64,000 bases of DNA from a virus, in the IMG/VR virus record IMGVR_UViG_3300025892_002268, positions 32,115 to 96,114 of that record; one strand, 5' to 3'. Positions 34,269 to 41,841 of this stretch are shown in pieces. The notes beneath the pieces are model-generated. The model was not told the origin of the DNA. It saw only the letters and a program-made list of their open reading frames with translations, and did no database searches. Each line of letters starts with the position of its first letter. The stretch's first letter is position 1. The position numbers and the translations under genes were made by a program.

Positions 34269-34332
34269 TGCTCCAAGACCTAAAGAGCCTGTTAAAAGAC
34301 CTTTGCCCCCCAATCCCAATAAAGTTGATTGA
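34234..34332 (+). CDS. Tiny proline-rich protein, 32 residues
   Basis: AAGGAATCTCAG precedes the ATG, which lies inside the end of the phosphatase gene in another frame. The product, M-T-K-K-I-K-S-Y-P-L-T-D-A-P-R-P and on to P-N-K-V-D, is basic and Pro-rich. Short Pro-rich peptides can act as partner-binding tails. The remaining gap to the polymerase gene (34333-34425) holds only the ribosome site and possible promoter elements. Confidence 0.45.
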   Translation: MTKKIKSYPLTDAPRPKEPVKRPLPPNPNKVD

Positions 34333-34425
34333 TTAGTAGTTGCGTTTAGCCGGATGTGTCGTACTATAAATACTACGCTTATTCCGTATCGTTGCTATAC
34401 TTTGAAATAATTTAAGGAGAAAATA

Positions 34426-35991
34426 TTGAACTGGTTTCCGTTGCATAATTTTACACATTATAGTTTGTTAAAAGGCTTCTCAAAGCCTCATGAGTTAGCA
34501 AAAATTTGTTCTGATAATAACTATCCAGCGTGTGGAATTTCAGATTACAAGACTATTTCTGGATGCGTTTCCTTCTATCAAGCTTGTAAAAAGGTTGGCA
34601 TAAAGCCAATTCTTGGCTGTACATTCGACAATTCTACTGTATATGCCAAGAATAAAAAGGGGTGGAATGATCTTATCGAAATGGTTTCTTGTCTTGATGA
34701 AAATAGCGATCTATCAAATAAGATAGCTAAGGATATTATATCTAGAGACAATCTTATATTGTTAAATAAACCATCTTCAGTCTCTTACTACGTTCAATCA
34801 AAACATGCTGAACTTCACAGGATTCTCATGTGTTCAGAGCTTAAGACCACTCTTCCCAAGGTGCAAAAAAAACTTCGTAAAAATGAGCTGCCTAAAGAAA
34901 TCTCTTCTTTTTTTACAAAAAGTGACAAGTGCATACGGTCAGATGTCATGACAAAAGAATTAGAGAGTATTTATGAACAATGCGAAGAATATAATATACT
35001 CAACGCACCAATGTTACCTAAGTTTTCATGTCCAAACGACATGTCAGAAGAAGAATATCTTAAAGTATTAGCAAGAGAAGGTTGGAGAAAATTACTCATT
35101 AACACGGGGAAAGTAAACCAAGAAGAATCAAAGAATAAATACTTAGACAGATTCAATTCAGAGTTACAAGTAATTAAAGATGCTAATTTATTTGGATATT
35201 TTCTTATAGTGCAGGATATTATAAGGCACATAGAAAAAGACATGGGTTGTTTAGCTGGTCCGGGCAGAGGATCAGCAGCTGGATGCTTAATATCATACTT
35301 GATTGGCGTTACTAAGATTGACCCTGTAGAACATGATTTACTTTTTGAACGTTTCTATAACGCTGGTAGAAATACAGGCGGTCATGTATCCTTGCCAGAT
35401 ATCGACATGGATGTTCCGGGTAAAAAGAGAGATGATGTTATTGATTATCTAAAAAATAAATACGGTAAAGATCATGTTAGTCAGATGATTACATTTGGCA
35501 GACTTCAAGGACGTAGCGCAATTAAAGAAGTGCTTCGTATAAATGATGCTTGTTCTTTTAGTGAAATGAACGCTATAACAAAAAGTGTACCTAACGAGGC
35601 AGAAATCTCTGACCAGCTCGCAGAAATGGATGAAGAGGACAGATCTATAATCAGATGGTCTTTAATAAATCGTCCTGATGAACTTAGAGATTTTTGCCAC
35701 ATAACAGATAGCGGAAAGCTAGAAGGTGATTACGCAGAGTATTTTGAACAAGCTATTAATATGGAAGGAACGTTTAAGACTCAAGGTAAACACGCTGCTG
35801 GGGTTGTTATATCTAAAGAACCACTGCACACAGTTTGTCCAATGGTAAAACAGAAAGGCTCTACAGAAAAAATTGCAGGACTAGAAATGACAGACCTAGA
35901 AGCACTGGGTCATGTAAAATTTGACGTTCTAGGAATTAATCTACTAGATAAATTAATGAAAATTAAGGAATTAACTAATGATAGAGGTTGA
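34426..35991 (+). CDS. dnaE: DNA polymerase III alpha (DnaE type), N-terminal fragment: PHP and palm
   Basis: The start is TTG behind AAGGAGA. Residues 1-80 are a PHP domain, but the first metal motif has changed (P-L-H-N-F-T-H-Y-S instead of H-x-H). The palm holds G-P-G-R-G-S-A-A-G and the catalytic P-D325-I-D327-M-D. The third catalytic Asp is D500 in K-F-D-V-L-G. The K-T-Q-G-K-H-A-A-G-V-V block is also present. The gene stops at residue 521, soon after D500, where bacterial DnaE continues into the fingers. All catalytic acids are in this piece and the missing part is encoded at 37123-38700. It overlaps the next gene by 14 bases. No intein sequence is visible at its end. Confidence 0.9.
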   Translation: MNWFPLHNFTHYSLLKGFSKPHELAKICSDNNYPACGISDYKTISGCVSFYQACKKVGIKPILGCTFDNSTVYAKNKKGWNDLIEMVSCLDENSDLSNKIAKDIISRDNLILLNKPSSVSYYVQSKHAELHRILMCSELKTTLPKVQKKLRKNELPKEISSFFTKSDKCIRSDVMTKELESIYEQCEEYNILNAPMLPKFSCPNDMSEEEYLKVLAREGWRKLLINTGKVNQEESKNKYLDRFNSELQVIKDANLFGYFLIVQDIIRHIEKDMGCLAGPGRGSAAGCLISYLIGVTKIDPVEHDLLFERFYNAGRNTGGHVSLPDIDMDVPGKKRDDVIDYLKNKYGKDHVSQMITFGRLQGRSAIKEVLRINDACSFSEMNAITKSVPNEAEISDQLAEMDEEDRSIIRWSLINRPDELRDFCHITDSGKLEGDYAEYFEQAINMEGTFKTQGKHAAGVVISKEPLHTVCPMVKQKGSTEKIAGLEMTDLEALGHVKFDVLGINLLDKLMKIKELTNDRG

Positions 35992-36472
35992 AGTTACAGA
36001 TTATATGAGAGTTAAAGCTAGAAGTATGGCAAGAGAACTGGGCAAGCTTAAAAACTCTATAACAAAAGGCGATGGCAACATTGCTGGTTTTATAGGAGAA
36101 TTGATAGCCTTGGATCATCTTGGTGGAGTTCAAGCCAACACTTATGATTTTGATATTGTAAGTGATGGCAAAACATACGATGTGAAAACCAAAAGATGTA
36201 CAAGTCCTCCTAAGCCATATTACGACTGTTCAGTAGCTGCATTCAACACAAAGCAAAGATGTGATATTTATTTTTTTGTAAGAGTACAGTTTCAGGGCGA
36301 CAGACCTGTGAAAGCGTGGGTATTGGGACAAAAAGATAAGGCTGAATATTTTAAGCAAGCTACCAAACTTAAAAAAGGAGAGATAGACCCAAGTAATAAT
36401 TTTACAGTTAAAGCAGACTGCTATAACTTAAGCATAAACAAACTGGAAAGAGTAGAGGAAAAACATGGCTAA
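35978..36472 (+). CDS. PD-(D/E)XK-like nuclease between the polymerase halves
   Basis: The 164-residue protein has F-I-G-E-L-I-A-L-D, Y-D-F-D-I-V and Y-D-V-K-T-K, matching the E, D and D-x-K positions of the PD-(D/E)XK fold. Restriction-like homing enzymes such as I-Ssp6803I have this fold, but there is no strong family match by eye. It starts within the end of the polymerase N-fragment and overlaps the exonuclease by 8 bases. It could be the mobile nuclease that broke the polymerase gene, or a resident replication nuclease. Confidence 0.6.
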   Translation: MIEVEVTDYMRVKARSMARELGKLKNSITKGDGNIAGFIGELIALDHLGGVQANTYDFDIVSDGKTYDVKTKRCTSPPKPYYDCSVAAFNTKQRCDIYFFVRVQFQGDRPVKAWVLGQKDKAEYFKQATKLKKGEIDPSNNFTVKADCYNLSINKLERVEEKHG

Positions 36473-37145
36473 TAGAGACTATATCGTATTTGACTTTGAA
36501 ACTGGAAGTAGAAATCCAACCCGAACACAGCCCACACAGCTTGCAGCAGTAGCGCTGGATGGTAGAAATCTTGCCGTTAAAGGCACGTTTAATAGTGAGA
36601 TTAAAGCTATCTTAGACGATGACAAGGCTATCGCTGAAGGTTTAGACCCAATCGAGGATGGTGCTTTAAAAGTTACTGGGAAAACACGATCAGGTATCGG
36701 CAAAGCTCCAGCCCTTAAATCAGTATGGAGTAAATTCATTAAGTTTGTGGACCAATACAATTGGAAAGGCGAACCATTCTTTGCACCAATTCCAGTAGGA
36801 TATAACATCATTGGTTTCGATATGATTATAATTAATAGACTGTGTGAACAGTTTGGTCAGTGGGATAAAACTAGACAGCAACAAAAACTATTTAGCAAGG
36901 TGTACAAAGTTGACCTTATGGATAATATGTTTATGTGGACAGAGGGTGATCCAAGCGTAAGGTCTATAAGCATGGATACTCTAAGAGAGCGTATGGGTCT
37001 GTCAACTGAGAATGCTCACGACGCACTACAAGACGTTAAAGACACTTCTAATATATTCATAAAACTGCTGAAGACTCACAGAGCAGTCTACCAAAACATT
37101 GAACTAGACAAGGCATTTGCAAATGGAAACCTATACGTCAAATGA
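36465..37145 (+). CDS. DEDD-family 3'-5' exonuclease, likely proofreading
   Basis: Motif I is Y-I-V-F-D-F-E-T-G-S, motif II is Y-N-I-I-G-F-D-M-I, and motif III is N-A-H-D-A-L-Q-D-V-K-D, with His and Asp in DnaQ (DEDDh) spacing. The 226 residues fit a single exonuclease domain. Lying between the two polymerase halves, which have a degenerate PHP domain, it is the best candidate for the proofreading subunit. It overlaps both neighbours. Confidence 0.85.
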   Translation: MANRDYIVFDFETGSRNPTRTQPTQLAAVALDGRNLAVKGTFNSEIKAILDDDKAIAEGLDPIEDGALKVTGKTRSGIGKAPALKSVWSKFIKFVDQYNWKGEPFFAPIPVGYNIIGFDMIIINRLCEQFGQWDKTRQQQKLFSKVYKVDLMDNMFMWTEGDPSVRSISMDTLRERMGLSTENAHDALQDVKDTSNIFIKLLKTHRAVYQNIELDKAFANGNLYVK

Positions 37146-38700
37146 ATATGACGATAAGCAGACTTGGCAATTATTTGAAGAGGGGAAAACTAAGGGTGTA
37201 TTTCAGCTAGAAAGCAATCTTGGTAAGTCTTGGTCTAAAAAACTTGCGCCCCACAATATAGAAGAACTGTCTGCACTTATTGCTATTATCAGACCGGGAT
37301 GCTTAAAGGCTTTCGTGGATGGTAAATCCATGAGTCAGCATTTTATTGATAGAAAGCATGGAAGAGAAGAGGTAACATATTTACATGAATGCCTAGAGGA
37401 AATCTTACTACCAACGTATGGGGTTCTTGTGTATCAAGAGCAATCTATGCGTATTGCACAGAAGGTTGCGGGATTTAATCTACAGCAAGCAGATGAACTC
37501 CGTAAAGCAATTGGTAAGAAAAAAGCAAACCTGATGGCGAAAGTTAAGAAAAAATTCATATCTGGATCTAAGAAAGTTGGGCTAGTGGATAAAGATACAT
37601 CTGAAGAAATATTTGGATGGATTGAAAAGTCTTCTAGGTATGCTTTTAATAAATCACACAGTATATCATACGCTGTATGTTCTTACTGGAGCGCTTATCA
37701 GAAAGCTCACAATCCAGAAGAATTTTTCCTAGCTTATTTGTATTATGCAAATGAAAAGCAAGATCCACACCAAGAGATATATGAGTTGATATCTGAAGCG
37801 AAACTATTCGACATTCAAGCTAGAACTCCCAGCGTTGCTAACTATCAAGATAAATTCAACGCTAAGAAAAAGAAAATATATTTTGGAATTAAAGATATTA
37901 AATCTCTTACAGGTAAAACAGGAGAAAAAGTTGTAACTGGTATAAGCGAAGCGGAGGAAGAATTAAATAAGAAGATAAATAAATTCAATTGGTTAGAAAT
38001 ATTATTATTTTTCTCGCCAAGAGTAAACTCTACTGCCTTCAAAGCTTTATCATCTATAGGATTCTTTAGAGATTTTAATGGCAAAATCAGCAGAAACAAA
38101 GCGCTGTACGACTACGAAATATACCGTACATTAACCAAAGCTGAACAGACATGGATTAAAACTAATTATAAAGATAAGCGGTGGGATAGCTTTGTAGATT
38201 GTTTAAAAGATTTATCTCCAACAAAAAAGGAAGGTGGAGGAACAAGCAAGCAGGAAAGAAAACAAATTGTAGAAAATGAAATACAACTTCTTAACAATCC
38301 ACCTTACAGCCTAGAAGATGACATAACATGGATTATTGAACAAGAAACTAGGCTATTGGGATGCCCCGTAACATCCAACAAAATAGATACAGCAGATACT
38401 TCAGCTGCTAATACTACATGTAAAGATATTGTTAATGGTAAAAAGGGAAAGAATCTATGCGTCGTGGCAAATGTACAAAGACTATCTGACTACAAAATAA
38501 CTAAAGGAGATTCTAAAGGGCAAACAATGTCATTTTTAACAATAGAAGATGACTCATGTATTTTAGATAGTGTAATAATATTCCCAACTATAAAGAATAA
38601 GTATAAGTATATATTATACGAAGGCAATAATCTTGTTTTTTGTGGTAATGTGCAAAAGAATGATTCTTCATTTATCGTAGAAAAAATTCACGAATTATGA
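37123..38700 (+). CDS. dnaE: DNA polymerase III alpha (DnaE type), C-terminal fragment: fingers to OB fold
   Basis: The ATG at 37123 is preferred over an in-frame TTG two codons earlier. The product begins where the bacterial enzyme continues after the palm: L-F-E-E-G-K-T-K-G-V-F-Q-L-E-S. It goes on with I-A-I-I-R-P-G, G-V-L-V-Y-Q-E-Q-S-M, L-R-K-A-I-G-K-K and Y-A-F-N-K-S-H-S-I-S-Y, the fingers and nucleotide-binding blocks. The end has an OB-like L-C-V-V-A-N-V-Q-R-L-S-D-Y. The usual tau-binding tail is absent. With the N-fragment it makes about 1047 residues, near full DnaE length. The halves must associate to work. Confidence 0.9.
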   Translation: METYTSNEYDDKQTWQLFEEGKTKGVFQLESNLGKSWSKKLAPHNIEELSALIAIIRPGCLKAFVDGKSMSQHFIDRKHGREEVTYLHECLEEILLPTYGVLVYQEQSMRIAQKVAGFNLQQADELRKAIGKKKANLMAKVKKKFISGSKKVGLVDKDTSEEIFGWIEKSSRYAFNKSHSISYAVCSYWSAYQKAHNPEEFFLAYLYYANEKQDPHQEIYELISEAKLFDIQARTPSVANYQDKFNAKKKKIYFGIKDIKSLTGKTGEKVVTGISEAEEELNKKINKFNWLEILLFFSPRVNSTAFKALSSIGFFRDFNGKISRNKALYDYEIYRTLTKAEQTWIKTNYKDKRWDSFVDCLKDLSPTKKEGGGTSKQERKQIVENEIQLLNNPPYSLEDDITWIIEQETRLLGCPVTSNKIDTADTSAANTTCKDIVNGKKGKNLCVVANVQRLSDYKITKGDSKGQTMSFLTIEDDSCILDSVIIFPTIKNKYKYILYEGNNLVFCGNVQKNDSSFIVEKIHEL

Positions 38701-38747
38701 TTGTTTTTTCGTGTTGTCCAAGCTAATATATAAAGATAGGAGATAGA

Positions 38748-39074
38748 ATGAACAACTGTTGTTTTACTGGATATTTAGTAGAAAATCCACACACTACCCA
38801 CGTTGGAAGTGTTCTGCTTGCAGAATTTACCATTGTGGTATATACTTATAGGAGAACGAAGAGTACTGGAGAGAAGAGTAGAATCCCCACATACTTACAC
38901 TGTGAGGCTTGGCATACCGGGGCAGAAACGATTGAAAAATTTGCTAAAAAAGGTACTAAAATAACTATACAAGCTTCAGCCAAGCATCTCTCTAAAGATA
39001 ATGACACACTTATATTTAGAGTAAATGAATTTGATATTTGTCAAGATAACGATTTTGAGGATTGGTCTACATGA
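38748..39074 (+). CDS. ssb: Second single-stranded DNA-binding protein, diverged
   Basis: The OB pattern is F-T-G-Y-L-V-E-N-P-H, then L-A-E-F-T-I-V-V, L-H-C-E-A-W-H-T-G-A-E-T-I-E-K-F and K-G-T-K-I-T-I-Q-A. The tail ends D-N-D-F-E-D-W, an acidic tip like that of bacterial SSB, which the first SSB lacks. The 108 residues are one OB domain. It follows the polymerase C-fragment after a 47-base gap with a TAGGAGAT ribosome site, and overlaps the first glycan gene by 4 bases. It probably serves the replisome and recruits partners through its tip. Confidence 0.82.
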   Translation: MNNCCFTGYLVENPHTTHVGSVLLAEFTIVVYTYRRTKSTGEKSRIPTYLHCEAWHTGAETIEKFAKKGTKITIQASAKHLSKDNDTLIFRVNEFDICQDNDFEDWST

Positions 39075-40726
39075 GAAAAAAACGTATATTGTTTTGCACA
39101 GAAGCCACATTTCTTAATACAGGATATGCTACGTATTCCAGAGAAATATTAAATTATTTATACGAAACAGGAAAATATGAGATAGCTGAACTATCGTCTT
39201 ACGGTAGCAAGGATGATCACAGATCTCTAGATATTAAGTGGGAATACTTTCCAGCATCTTTACCAAAAAATGCTAGCAGAGCAGAGCATGATGCATTTTC
39301 TCAAAAACATACTAATCAATTTGGTGAATACAAATTTCCTGAAGCTTGCTTAAGATTCAAACCTGATATCGTCTGCGACATTAGAGATTTCTGGATGATA
39401 GAATTTGTAGAACGTTCTACTTACAGGCCATTTTTCAAATGGTGCATTATGCCAACTGTAGATGCTGCGCCACAAGCGACGAGCTGGATGGAAACTTTTA
39501 AATCAGCTGATGCTTGTTTAAGCTATTCGGATTGGTCTGGAAAAGTACTTAATGAGCAAAGTAATAATTCTATTAATTACATTGGTTCTGCTCCACCATC
39601 TGCTCATGAAGCATATACGATTATCAAAGATAAAAATGAGTGCAGAGCAGCTATGAATATACCTACAAATGCCAAAGTTATAGGCACAGTAATGAGAAAT
39701 CAGCGTAGGAAATTATATCCAGATTTATTTGCAACATTTAGAAAAGTTTTAGATGTTGTAGAAAATCCTTACTCATATTATCTTTATTGTCATACTAGCT
39801 TTCCAGATATGGGATGGGATATTCCAGAGCTATTGCAAGAACACGGTTTAGCCTCCCATGTTTTATTCACTTATCTATGTACTAAAACTAATAAACCTTT
39901 TGCTTCTTTCTTTTGTGGGCCTAGAGCCATATCGCCATACACTCAAGACTTAGATGGCATTATGGTCAGCGTTCAGAATGGTCTTTCTTATACAGACCTA
40001 TCTACAATTATGCAATCTTTTGATTTGTATGTACAATATGCTAACTCAGAAGGGTTTGGCTTACCTCAAGTAGAAGCTGCTGCCAGCAGCATACCTGTAG
40101 CTTCTATTAATTACTCAGCTATGGAAAGTGTTATTAAAAAATTAGAGGGTATACCATTACCACCAAAAGCTTTATATAAAGAGATGGAAACAGGGTGTAT
40201 GAGAGCTGTTCCAGATAATGATTACTCAGCAAAAGAAATTGTGGAATTCTTCAAGCTTCCTGAAGAGTTAAGAAAAAAAATAGGTCACACTATGAAGCAG
40301 AATTTTCTTAAGCATTTTCAGTGGGACAAAAGTGGAGCCGTGTGGGAAAAATGTTTTGACTCTTTTGAAATTGTTCCAGAAGAAAAAACTTGGCTGTCTC
40401 CACCTAGAATACTTTCTCCTAAACCAATGCCTTCTGAGAAACAATTCGACACTATAGAGCAAGGTGTAAATTATTTATTCAGCGATGTATTGTGCAAACC
40501 AGAACTTATTGGTTCTCAAATGCATCAACGAATGATTAGAGATATAATGTATGGATTTACCACGTCAGCAACAGCTGGAATGTATCAAAACGATAGTTCT
40601 GCCATTCAAGACGGCAACTTAAAGAAAACAACATTTAATTTTGAAACAGCTTATAGAAACTGCCATATGATGAGGTTGCAAGAAAATCACTATGAACAAC
40701 AAAGGAAGGAGGCGTTTGGTCTATAA
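39071..40726 (+). CDS. GT4-like glycosyltransferase with C-terminal extension
   Basis: The ATG at 39071 lies in an ATGA junction with the SSB stop. The N-terminal GT-B half begins R-I-L-F-C-T-E-A-T-F-L-N-T-G-Y. The second half has V-I-G-T-V-M-R-N-Q-R-R-K and the donor-binding Y-A-N-S-E-G-F-G-L-P-Q-V-E-A-A-A. A C-terminal region of about 130 residues (after Q-F-D-T-I-E-Q-G) is not part of the core and may bind partners. It opens the glycan island and is coupled to the next transferase. Confidence 0.83.
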   Translation: MRKKRILFCTEATFLNTGYATYSREILNYLYETGKYEIAELSSYGSKDDHRSLDIKWEYFPASLPKNASRAEHDAFSQKHTNQFGEYKFPEACLRFKPDIVCDIRDFWMIEFVERSTYRPFFKWCIMPTVDAAPQATSWMETFKSADACLSYSDWSGKVLNEQSNNSINYIGSAPPSAHEAYTIIKDKNECRAAMNIPTNAKVIGTVMRNQRRKLYPDLFATFRKVLDVVENPYSYYLYCHTSFPDMGWDIPELLQEHGLASHVLFTYLCTKTNKPFASFFCGPRAISPYTQDLDGIMVSVQNGLSYTDLSTIMQSFDLYVQYANSEGFGLPQVEAAASSIPVASINYSAMESVIKKLEGIPLPPKALYKEMETGCMRAVPDNDYSAKEIVEFFKLPEELRKKIGHTMKQNFLKHFQWDKSGAVWEKCFDSFEIVPEEKTWLSPPRILSPKPMPSEKQFDTIEQGVNYLFSDVLCKPELIGSQMHQRMIRDIMYGFTTSATAGMYQNDSSAIQDGNLKKTTFNFETAYRNCHMMRLQENHYEQQRKEAFGL

Positions 40727-41841
40727 TGAAAGTACTTTACACAGCGCATTATAAAGAAGATAGTGGGTGGTCAAACGCAGCGGTAAATAACATCTTAGCA
40801 CTAGACGTTGCTGGGGTAGATGTAGTATGCAGAAATGTACAGCTAACAAATAAGAAATCCCAAATACCAAAGAAGATCACAGAGCTAGAACAAAAAGATT
40901 TAAAAGGAGTAACACATTGCATACAAAACGTATTGCCTCACCATTTCTGCGGAACCACAAACGTTAAAAAGAATGTAGCATATTATTATGGAGAATCTAT
41001 ATTTAATCAAAAGAATTTATGGCATTTAAATTTAGATTTAGCAGATGAGGTATGGGTAACAAACAACGAGCTAAAAGATCATACTCAAAAATTGTTGAAC
41101 ACAAAAGTTAAAAACGTACCACAGGCGGTTCAAACTGAAAAGTACAAGAAGAAATACAAAGAAGTTGACTTTGGCACAAGCGATGTTGACTTTAAATTTT
41201 ATTTTATTGGGGATATAAATGATAGAAAAAATCTCAAATCTATAATCAAGTGTTATTATAGAACTTTTAATGCTGGCAGCAATACCATGTTGTTTATCAA
41301 AGTTAAAAAATTCTCTATGTCTTCTCAAGCTTTGGATGCTCACTGTCGCCAGATATGTTCAGATATACAGAAAGAAATGAGAATTTATAGTAATGGGATG
41401 CAATACGCTTCTGTAAAGTTTATAACAGCAAACACTGATGAAGATTTTATATATTCATTACATCAGTACTGTGATTGCTTTATAGGAGCAAGTCATGGAG
41501 AAGCTTGGTCTTTGCCAGCTTTTGACGCAATGTGTTTTGGAAGCACTCCTATATGTAGCGATGAGGGTGGACCAAAAGAGTTTATAGATAAAAACAATAA
41601 GAACACAGGAACGCTTATCGAAGGACAATATGGAATATGTAATGAGCAAAATGGAGCATTTCCACATATATTTACAGGATCAGAGTTGTGGTTTGATCCT
41701 AGCGAAGAGCATTTATGTAATGCTATGAAATATTACTATGACAACAAAAGCATTAAAGATATTAACAATTGTCATAATTTTGGCAATAGCTTTAGCTTGA
41801 AAGAAGTAGGAAAGAAAATGAAGGAATTACTATATGAGTAA
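40726..41841 (+). CDS. GT4-like glycosyltransferase
   Basis: Start and stop are coupled to both neighbours (overlaps of 1 and 8 bases). The N-terminus M-K-V-L-Y-T-A-H-Y-K-E-D-S-G-W-S-N-A resembles the acceptor half of GT-B enzymes. The second half has F-I-G-D-I-N-D-R-K-N-L and the donor signature S-H-G-E-A-W-S-L-P-A-F-D-A-M-C-F-G-S-T-P. The 371 residues cover both halves. It likely adds a sugar next to that of the upstream enzyme. Confidence 0.8.
   Translation: MKVLYTAHYKEDSGWSNAAVNNILALDVAGVDVVCRNVQLTNKKSQIPKKITELEQKDLKGVTHCIQNVLPHHFCGTTNVKKNVAYYYGESIFNQKNLWHLNLDLADEVWVTNNELKDHTQKLLNTKVKNVPQAVQTEKYKKKYKEVDFGTSDVDFKFYFIGDINDRKNLKSIIKCYYRTFNAGSNTMLFIKVKKFSMSSQALDAHCRQICSDIQKEMRIYSNGMQYASVKFITANTDEDFIYSLHQYCDCFIGASHGEAWSLPAFDAMCFGSTPICSDEGGPKEFIDKNNKNTGTLIEGQYGICNEQNGAFPHIFTGSELWFDPSEEHLCNAMKYYYDNKSIKDINNCHNFGNSFSLKEVGKKMKELLYE

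Follow-up and report, generated by a model that had tools for sequence, protein, structure and literature searches.

Described split DnaE polymerases

DnaE, the replicative polymerase of the C family, is not always encoded by a single gene. Another such case is described here, in a 64,000-nucleotide stretch of viral DNA (the window), which corresponds to bases 32115-96114 of the linear IMG/VR record IMGVR_UViG_3300025892_002268 (96,114 bases). In this window, an exonuclease gene lies between two genes that each encode a part of DnaE. In cyanobacteria, DnaE is also carried by two genes, and its halves are rejoined by a split intein (PMC3919608), whereas no intein is present at the break of the window DnaE. 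The group 2.2 jumbo phages produce a minimal Pol III alpha as two proteins that are thought to reconstitute the enzyme (Iyer et al. 2021, PMC7824862). There, the other Pol III domains are missing, the two genes are far apart and a family B polymerase is present alongside (PMC7824862). The family of the window, on the contrary, has the full domains in one operon, and no PolB was found in the long contigs searched (see below).

DnaE is also annotated on two adjacent genes in the Cellulophaga phages phiST / phi13:1 (gp038-gp039), but the break precedes the catalytic DxD, near E. coli residue 397, and no exonuclease lies between the genes. Bacillus phage KLEB27-3 and Alicyclobacillus phage MMB025 likewise have an interrupted DnaE with two polymerase open reading frames (ORFs); their gaps hold an HNH gene and an endonuclease gene, respectively, and the breaks are at other positions. 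The same palm/fingers loop as in the window is cut in Rossellomorea phage phiT1 (gp20/gp19/gp18, PV767480), where gp20 ends near E. coli residue 578 and gp18 starts near residue 583, in closely packed genes without an intein. Unlike in the window, just a 49-residue ORF separates the phiT1 halves, with no exonuclease, and in the tree phiT1 branches separately, beside an intact phage DnaE. The phiT1 split is independent of that of the window family.

Proofreading by a DEDDh exonuclease, often together with an inactive PHP domain, is known from E. coli alpha-epsilon, from the internal exonuclease of PolC and from DnaE1-exo of Bacteroidetes (PMC12926913, PMC3919608). In contrast to the window, the polymerase is a single chain in these systems, and the exonuclease is a separate subunit, an insert in the PHP domain or an N-terminal fusion. 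The literature searched yielded no full-domain DnaE that comes in two pieces across a large lineage and whose break invariably holds an exonuclease gene. The preliminary description of this DNA had presented the two-piece DnaE as new. The absence of an intein and of an intron is borne out, but the novelty has to be qualified: other split phage DnaE exist, that of phiT1 at the same site.

Organization of the polymerase locus

Positions 34426-38700 of the window are occupied by four overlapping genes, in the order DnaE N-piece, NUC, EXO and DnaE C-piece. The features of the locus are as follows:

34426..35991, + strand: DnaE N-piece (degenerate PHP, palm and thumb), TTG start, 521 residues; catalytic Asp D325, D327 and D500; stop codon 21 residues past D500
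34438..34764, + strand: PHP domain remnant, N-piece residues 5-113; 1/9 metal-site residues, ~100 residues below the sister-phage length
35398..35406, + strand: codons of the catalytic DxD, D325-I-D327 (E. coli D401/D403), from alignments
35923..35925, + strand: codon of the third catalytic Asp, D500 (E. coli D555), from alignments
35978..36472, + strand: NUC, PD-(D/E)XK-type nuclease gene, 164 residues; E41...D59...(D/E)xK, model match to NhoI
36465..37145, + strand: EXO, DEDDh 3'-5' exonuclease gene, 226 residues; D10, E12, D119, H185 and D190; Pfam RNase_T, phrog_192
37123..38700, + strand: DnaE C-piece (fingers, HhH and OB fold, no C-terminal domain), 525 residues, ATG start at 37123
38748..39074, + strand: SSB-like gene, directly downstream of the C-piece

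The overlaps amount to 14 bases (N-piece/NUC), 8 bases (NUC/EXO) and 23 bases (EXO/C-piece). In Pfam, the N-piece matched PF07733 (2.5e-69) and PHP (2e-17), and the C-piece matched DNA_pol3_finger (2.2e-47), with its HhH and OB regions matched as well. The features of the C family, a palm with the DxD and the third Asp, PHP, fingers, HhH and OB, are thus found across two chains. Numbered as in E. coli DnaE, the N-piece ends near residue 578 and the C-piece starts near residue 583, in the palm/fingers loop, and almost no DnaE sequence is lost between the halves. The C-piece ends near E. coli residue 1060, and the C-terminal domain is absent. The ORFs and the Pfam matches agree with the earlier account of a DnaE split after its third catalytic Asp within four overlapping genes. 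Its statement that the halves together reach full DnaE length did not stand, as the PHP domain is ~100 residues shorter and the C-piece lacks the C-terminal domain. An AlphaFold2 model of the N-piece alone had a pLDDT of 91 and matched E. coli DnaE (2hqa) in Foldseek with a TMq of 0.76 and an E-value of 1.8e-28; on its own, the N-piece is predicted to be a well-formed DnaE half.

Conservation of the split in related phages

Relatives were gathered by scans with both pieces and with two distant relatives, down to ~42% identity. Three protein hidden Markov models were run on stop-to-stop ORFs, and the best hit per locus was taken by bit score. The related phages were searched for the gene order and for an intact dnaE: the order N-piece, EXO, C-piece, on one strand, was found in 278/278 viral loci, and the N- and C-pieces were in one ORF in none of them (0/278). 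The single polypeptide typical of C-family DnaE is therefore absent from this family. With 278 loci alike, chance is no explanation for the arrangement. The same test, applied as a control to bacterial dnaE, returned an intact gene in 79 of 79 loci taken from the genome scan. The viral loci comprise 204 distinct C-piece sequences, drawn from many independent metagenomes. In the tree, the split family forms one clade (SH-aLRT 100, stem length 1.06), separate from the DnaE of bacteria and of other phages; this tree is of a quick type and has long branches, and it does not fix the sister group of the clade.

In alignment columns, the three polymerase Asp are kept in 270/279 relatives, the exceptions being N-pieces that are further split or truncated. 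N-piece, EXO and C-piece are under strong purifying selection, with dN/dS <=0.065 for all three wherever synonymous sites are unsaturated. The split DnaE is neither an assembly error nor a pseudogene. Twenty-three contigs of 92-200 kb each contain one C-family fingers domain, and neither PolA nor PolB was detected in them, with working controls. An additional intact polymerase, which the preliminary description had named among the findings that would refute it, was thus not encountered in these linear contigs. This large group of uncultured phages apparently makes its sole recognisable replicative polymerase as two proteins.

Separation of the two halves

The Rfam scan of positions 34300-39100 gave no family, intron or other, at E<=1, and eight loci with large junction inserts gave no relevant Rfam match and no group I/II intron. 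No intein blocks were seen at the break in the distinct N-piece tails and C-piece heads inspected. The tails (19-34 residues) and heads (15-64 residues) around the motifs vary freely in length, and the IntN/IntC blocks (Cys1, and ...HN followed by S, C or T) were absent there. At another site, a split intein does occur: at L046:4403-6305 (L numbers denote loci of the relatives), it lies inside the N-piece, between GPGRG and SAAG (CFLPDTRV... and ...VHDISVENSHTYNVEGLGVHN followed by S). This breaks the DnaE of the locus into three pieces, and the split-intein fragments sit on two of them. As this intein is unmistakable, such elements are recognisable in the family.

The stop codons after the N-piece are mixed (TAA 92, TGA 59 and TAG 36), and the frame of the C-piece relative to the N-piece is random (72/65/50), which rules out joining by stop-codon read-through or frameshifting. 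Together with the lack of an intron and of intein blocks at the break, this argues that the halves are separate proteins, and the earlier claim of a true split without an intein is upheld. Nor does the gap have a homing nuclease as its constant gene, as a fracture by such an enzyme would imply: the invariant gene is the DEDDh exonuclease, and HNH-like, Vsr-like and PD-(D/E)XK ORFs are present in some loci only.

The exonuclease and the PHP domain

EXO matched Pfam RNase_T (6.7e-11) and, in PHROGs, phrog_192, the 'DNA polymerase exonuclease subunit'. It has all five catalytic residues of the DnaQ-class DEDDh enzymes (D-E-D-H-D), kept in alignment columns of 278/279 relatives; the single exception is truncated. 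EXO probably serves as the proofreader of the two-piece polymerase, a role suggested by the dead PHP domain, the conserved active site of EXO and the unchanging place of its gene, which overlaps a polymerase gene.

The PHP domain was scored against the nine-residue metal motif HHDHEH[C/H]DH of PMC12926913. Active bacterial references have 9/9 of these residues and E. coli DnaE 4/9. The sister clades have 7-8/9 (PHDHEHHDH, the first His usually being Pro), whereas the window has 1/9 and its clade 0-2/9, with ~100 residues lost. The window DnaE therefore has no active PHP site, a feature not needed for membership of the C family, as E. coli DnaE lacks it too. Because EXO and the split occur in every one of these clades, the decay of the PHP domain came later, in the clade of the window only. 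The altered PHP motif noted at the outset is thus real, but its tie to the split is not, since sister clades with the same split keep 7-8/9 residues. The proposal that the exonuclease came with the split survives as an ancestral, invariant association (278/278) and not as an order of the two events.

Variable genes at the junctions

NUC had no Pfam or NCBIfam match. Its model (pLDDT 84) best matched the PD-(D/E)XK enzyme NhoI (E 2e-5, TM ~0.45), a similarity at fold level only, and the motif E41...D59...(D/E)xK is conserved on the restriction-enzyme fold. A NUC-type gene lies between the N-piece and EXO in some relatives only; in L300, it lies between EXO and the C-piece, and in L063/L064/L117-L122, upstream of the RecB-like gene. 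This varying position rules out NUC as a core part of the polymerase unit; the PD-(D/E)XK gene is a passenger whose place at the junction varies. Of the initial reading of this gene, the identity is retained (motif and NhoI-like model), but not its inclusion in the unit.

The gaps on either side of EXO range from overlap up to almost 4 kb, with other genes inserted. In the relatives, these include nucleases of PD-(D/E)XK, HNH-like and Vsr-like types, along with methyltransferase-like ORFs and one ThyX-like ORF; apart from PD-(D/E)XK, these names come from reading of the sequences, with no profile search. At L070:4253-7900 and in L077, an insert of ~3-4 kb between EXO and the C-piece carries ThyX-like and DUF1559-like pilin-type ORFs, and that of L070 also holds a tRNA gene (Rfam, L070:6989-7061). 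A permuted tmRNA gene (RF04321) was found near the polymerase block of a viral contig, at L301:234-435.

About 105 distinct sister loci (e.g. L258, L327) have an ORF of ~60 residues between the N-piece and EXO, most with the motif F..L..G..F....Y.K....(S/T)CC...N; this ORF is missing from the clade of the window. It had no Pfam match and only weak PHROG matches (phrog_2183/phrog_12612, function unknown). Most sister-clade C-pieces begin, at the split end, with a conserved arm of ~30 residues, F/Y-x-CGC-K/S-F ... (L/F)xC. It is carried by L069-L079, L126 and L214-L373 (e.g. L070:7896-9497) and is absent in the clade of the window. This Cys-rich arm is possibly a metal-binding or docking element. 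In L280, L334, L335, L343, L345, L347 and L348 (e.g. L335:3952-7023), the N-piece has a second break just before the catalytic DxD. Several of these loci have a Vsr-like nuclease ORF in the gap, no intein motif was seen there, and the second ORF opens with ~95 novel residues.

Genome context

The gene content of the window includes a replication and nucleotide module of the kind found in large phages: a UvsX-like recombinase, a DnaB-like helicase, a Toprim primase, a dNMP kinase, a RecB-like PD-(D/E)XK nuclease, SSB, ribonucleotide reductase and PhoH. The primase and RecB-like genes are located upstream of the polymerase block. Affiliation with a host or a named phage through the helicase or the exonuclease was rejected, as the best matches reached just 24-30%. 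A tail-associated protein of 1157 residues (window:11150-14623) combines a PHROGs match to 'regulator of chromosome condensation' (RCC1-like) with an N-terminal region of tail-fibre type. Several glycosyltransferase-like proteins are encoded at window:6293-7387 and 39062-41841; two of them directly follow the SSB gene, and for these two the assignment is a sequence reading only.

A proposed two-subunit replicase and its alternatives

The locus probably encodes a C-family replicase of two obligate subunits, served by a proofreader that is dedicated to it and acts in trans. The overlapping message would yield the N- and C-pieces as separate chains, and termination-reinitiation at the overlaps of 14, 8 and 23 bases would lead to co-translation of the subunits. 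The N-piece, with the three Asp and a degenerate PHP, and the C-piece, with fingers, HhH and OB, would then re-form the DnaE fold non-covalently via the palm/fingers interface, which is large and intramolecular in normal DnaE. EXO, translated between the halves, would provide in trans the 3'-5' proofreading that a dead PHP cannot. The split itself probably goes back to a fracture of the gene at a site that tolerated it, and was already fixed when the family began to diversify. From this arrangement, we infer that the halves associate physically and are active, and that EXO proofreads for the polymerase. Genes for the subunits of heteromeric complexes show an excess of short overlaps (PMC10666635), and the order of genes in an operon tends to mirror that of assembly (PMC4742563).

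Several observations weigh against this interpretation. In profile searches, EXO is no nearer to DnaQ than to the PolC exonuclease or ExoI. In L022 and L024, EXO and its neighbours are conserved to different degrees (96% vs. 78-79% in L024); being sometimes more conserved than they are, EXO does not have a history that is strictly that of the polymerase halves. SSB follows the C-piece in 221/221 relatives where SSB was found, so the equally fixed position of EXO is by itself no proof of a complex; the whole block shares this fixed order. Sister phages with EXO still keep 8/9 PHP residues. A beta clamp was not found in the 23 contigs searched, with a working control; a search for a gp45 clamp is uninformative here, as its control matched nowhere. 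Finally, all records are linear contigs, possibly incomplete, in which another polymerase could be missed.

Several of these points would suit a two-piece DnaE that works while EXO is an independent DEDDh nuclease, active in degradation, end processing or recombination and held in place because the replication block moves together. General synteny, with SSB downstream and the primase and RecB-like genes upstream, agrees with such a role, as do the comparable likeness of EXO to ExoI, PolC and DnaQ exonucleases and its distinct conservation in L022 and L024. It is nevertheless unlikely, although far from negligible: EXO stays between the halves despite insertions on either side, its DEDDh residues never vary, it matches phrog_192, and another proofreader is expected where the PHP is dead, as in the window clade, or has nearly always lost its first His, as elsewhere. 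A better case, if one short of even, exists for the view that a mobile element, either a homing endonuclease or a split intein, broke dnaE, with the two-gene state as a tolerated, neutral scar. The HNH and endonuclease genes in the DnaE breaks of KLEB27-3 and MMB025, the split intein in the L046 N-piece, the Vsr-like ORFs of the L335 group and the HNH-like and PD-(D/E)XK genes that still land at the family junctions all point in this direction. The stable element of the gap, on the contrary, is a DnaQ-class exonuclease rather than a homing nuclease, the break retains neither intein ends nor an intron, and loss of EXO from the gap or rejoining of the genes was seen in 0/278 loci. As an account of the origin only, such a fracture is compatible with the two-subunit replicase.

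That the halves are joined into one chain by RNA splicing, trans-splicing or an unrecognised intein is very improbable. Almost no DnaE sequence is lost at the break, and split inteins do occur in the family at another site, as such joining would have it; against this, no group I/II intron was found at E<=1 or in the eight loci with junction inserts, the tails and heads, which vary freely in length, showed no intein block in the rows inspected, unlike the obvious intein of L046, and the gap consists of overlapping coding genes. Scarcely any weight can be given to a pseudogene, an assembly error or replacement by another polymerase in the same genome. The window record is indeed a linear 96-kb fragment, but the split recurs across many independent metagenomes (204 distinct C-piece sequences), with low dN/dS, intact catalytic residues and no PolA/PolB in the 23 contigs.

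An extension of the two-subunit replicase is a three-protein enzyme in which EXO would bind at the palm/fingers break and bridge both halves, proofreading being built into the split. This is unlikely, and to our knowledge no such EXO-bridged architecture is known for any polymerase family. The Cys-rich arm of the sister-clade C-pieces and the Cys-containing protein of ~60 residues may be further parts of such a junction.

Few proteins are as constrained as the replicative polymerases, yet an entire, varied lineage of phages seems to replicate its DNA with a DnaE severed between the catalytic palm and the fingers, which bind the nucleotide. That phiT1 has independently acquired a break at this point marks a natural two-module boundary in C-family polymerases, where split or conditional polymerases might find a ready-made site. 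Moreover, the occurrence of the same exonuclease with polymerases of near-intact and of dead PHP forms a natural series, in which a handover of editing from PHP to DEDDh would be testable.

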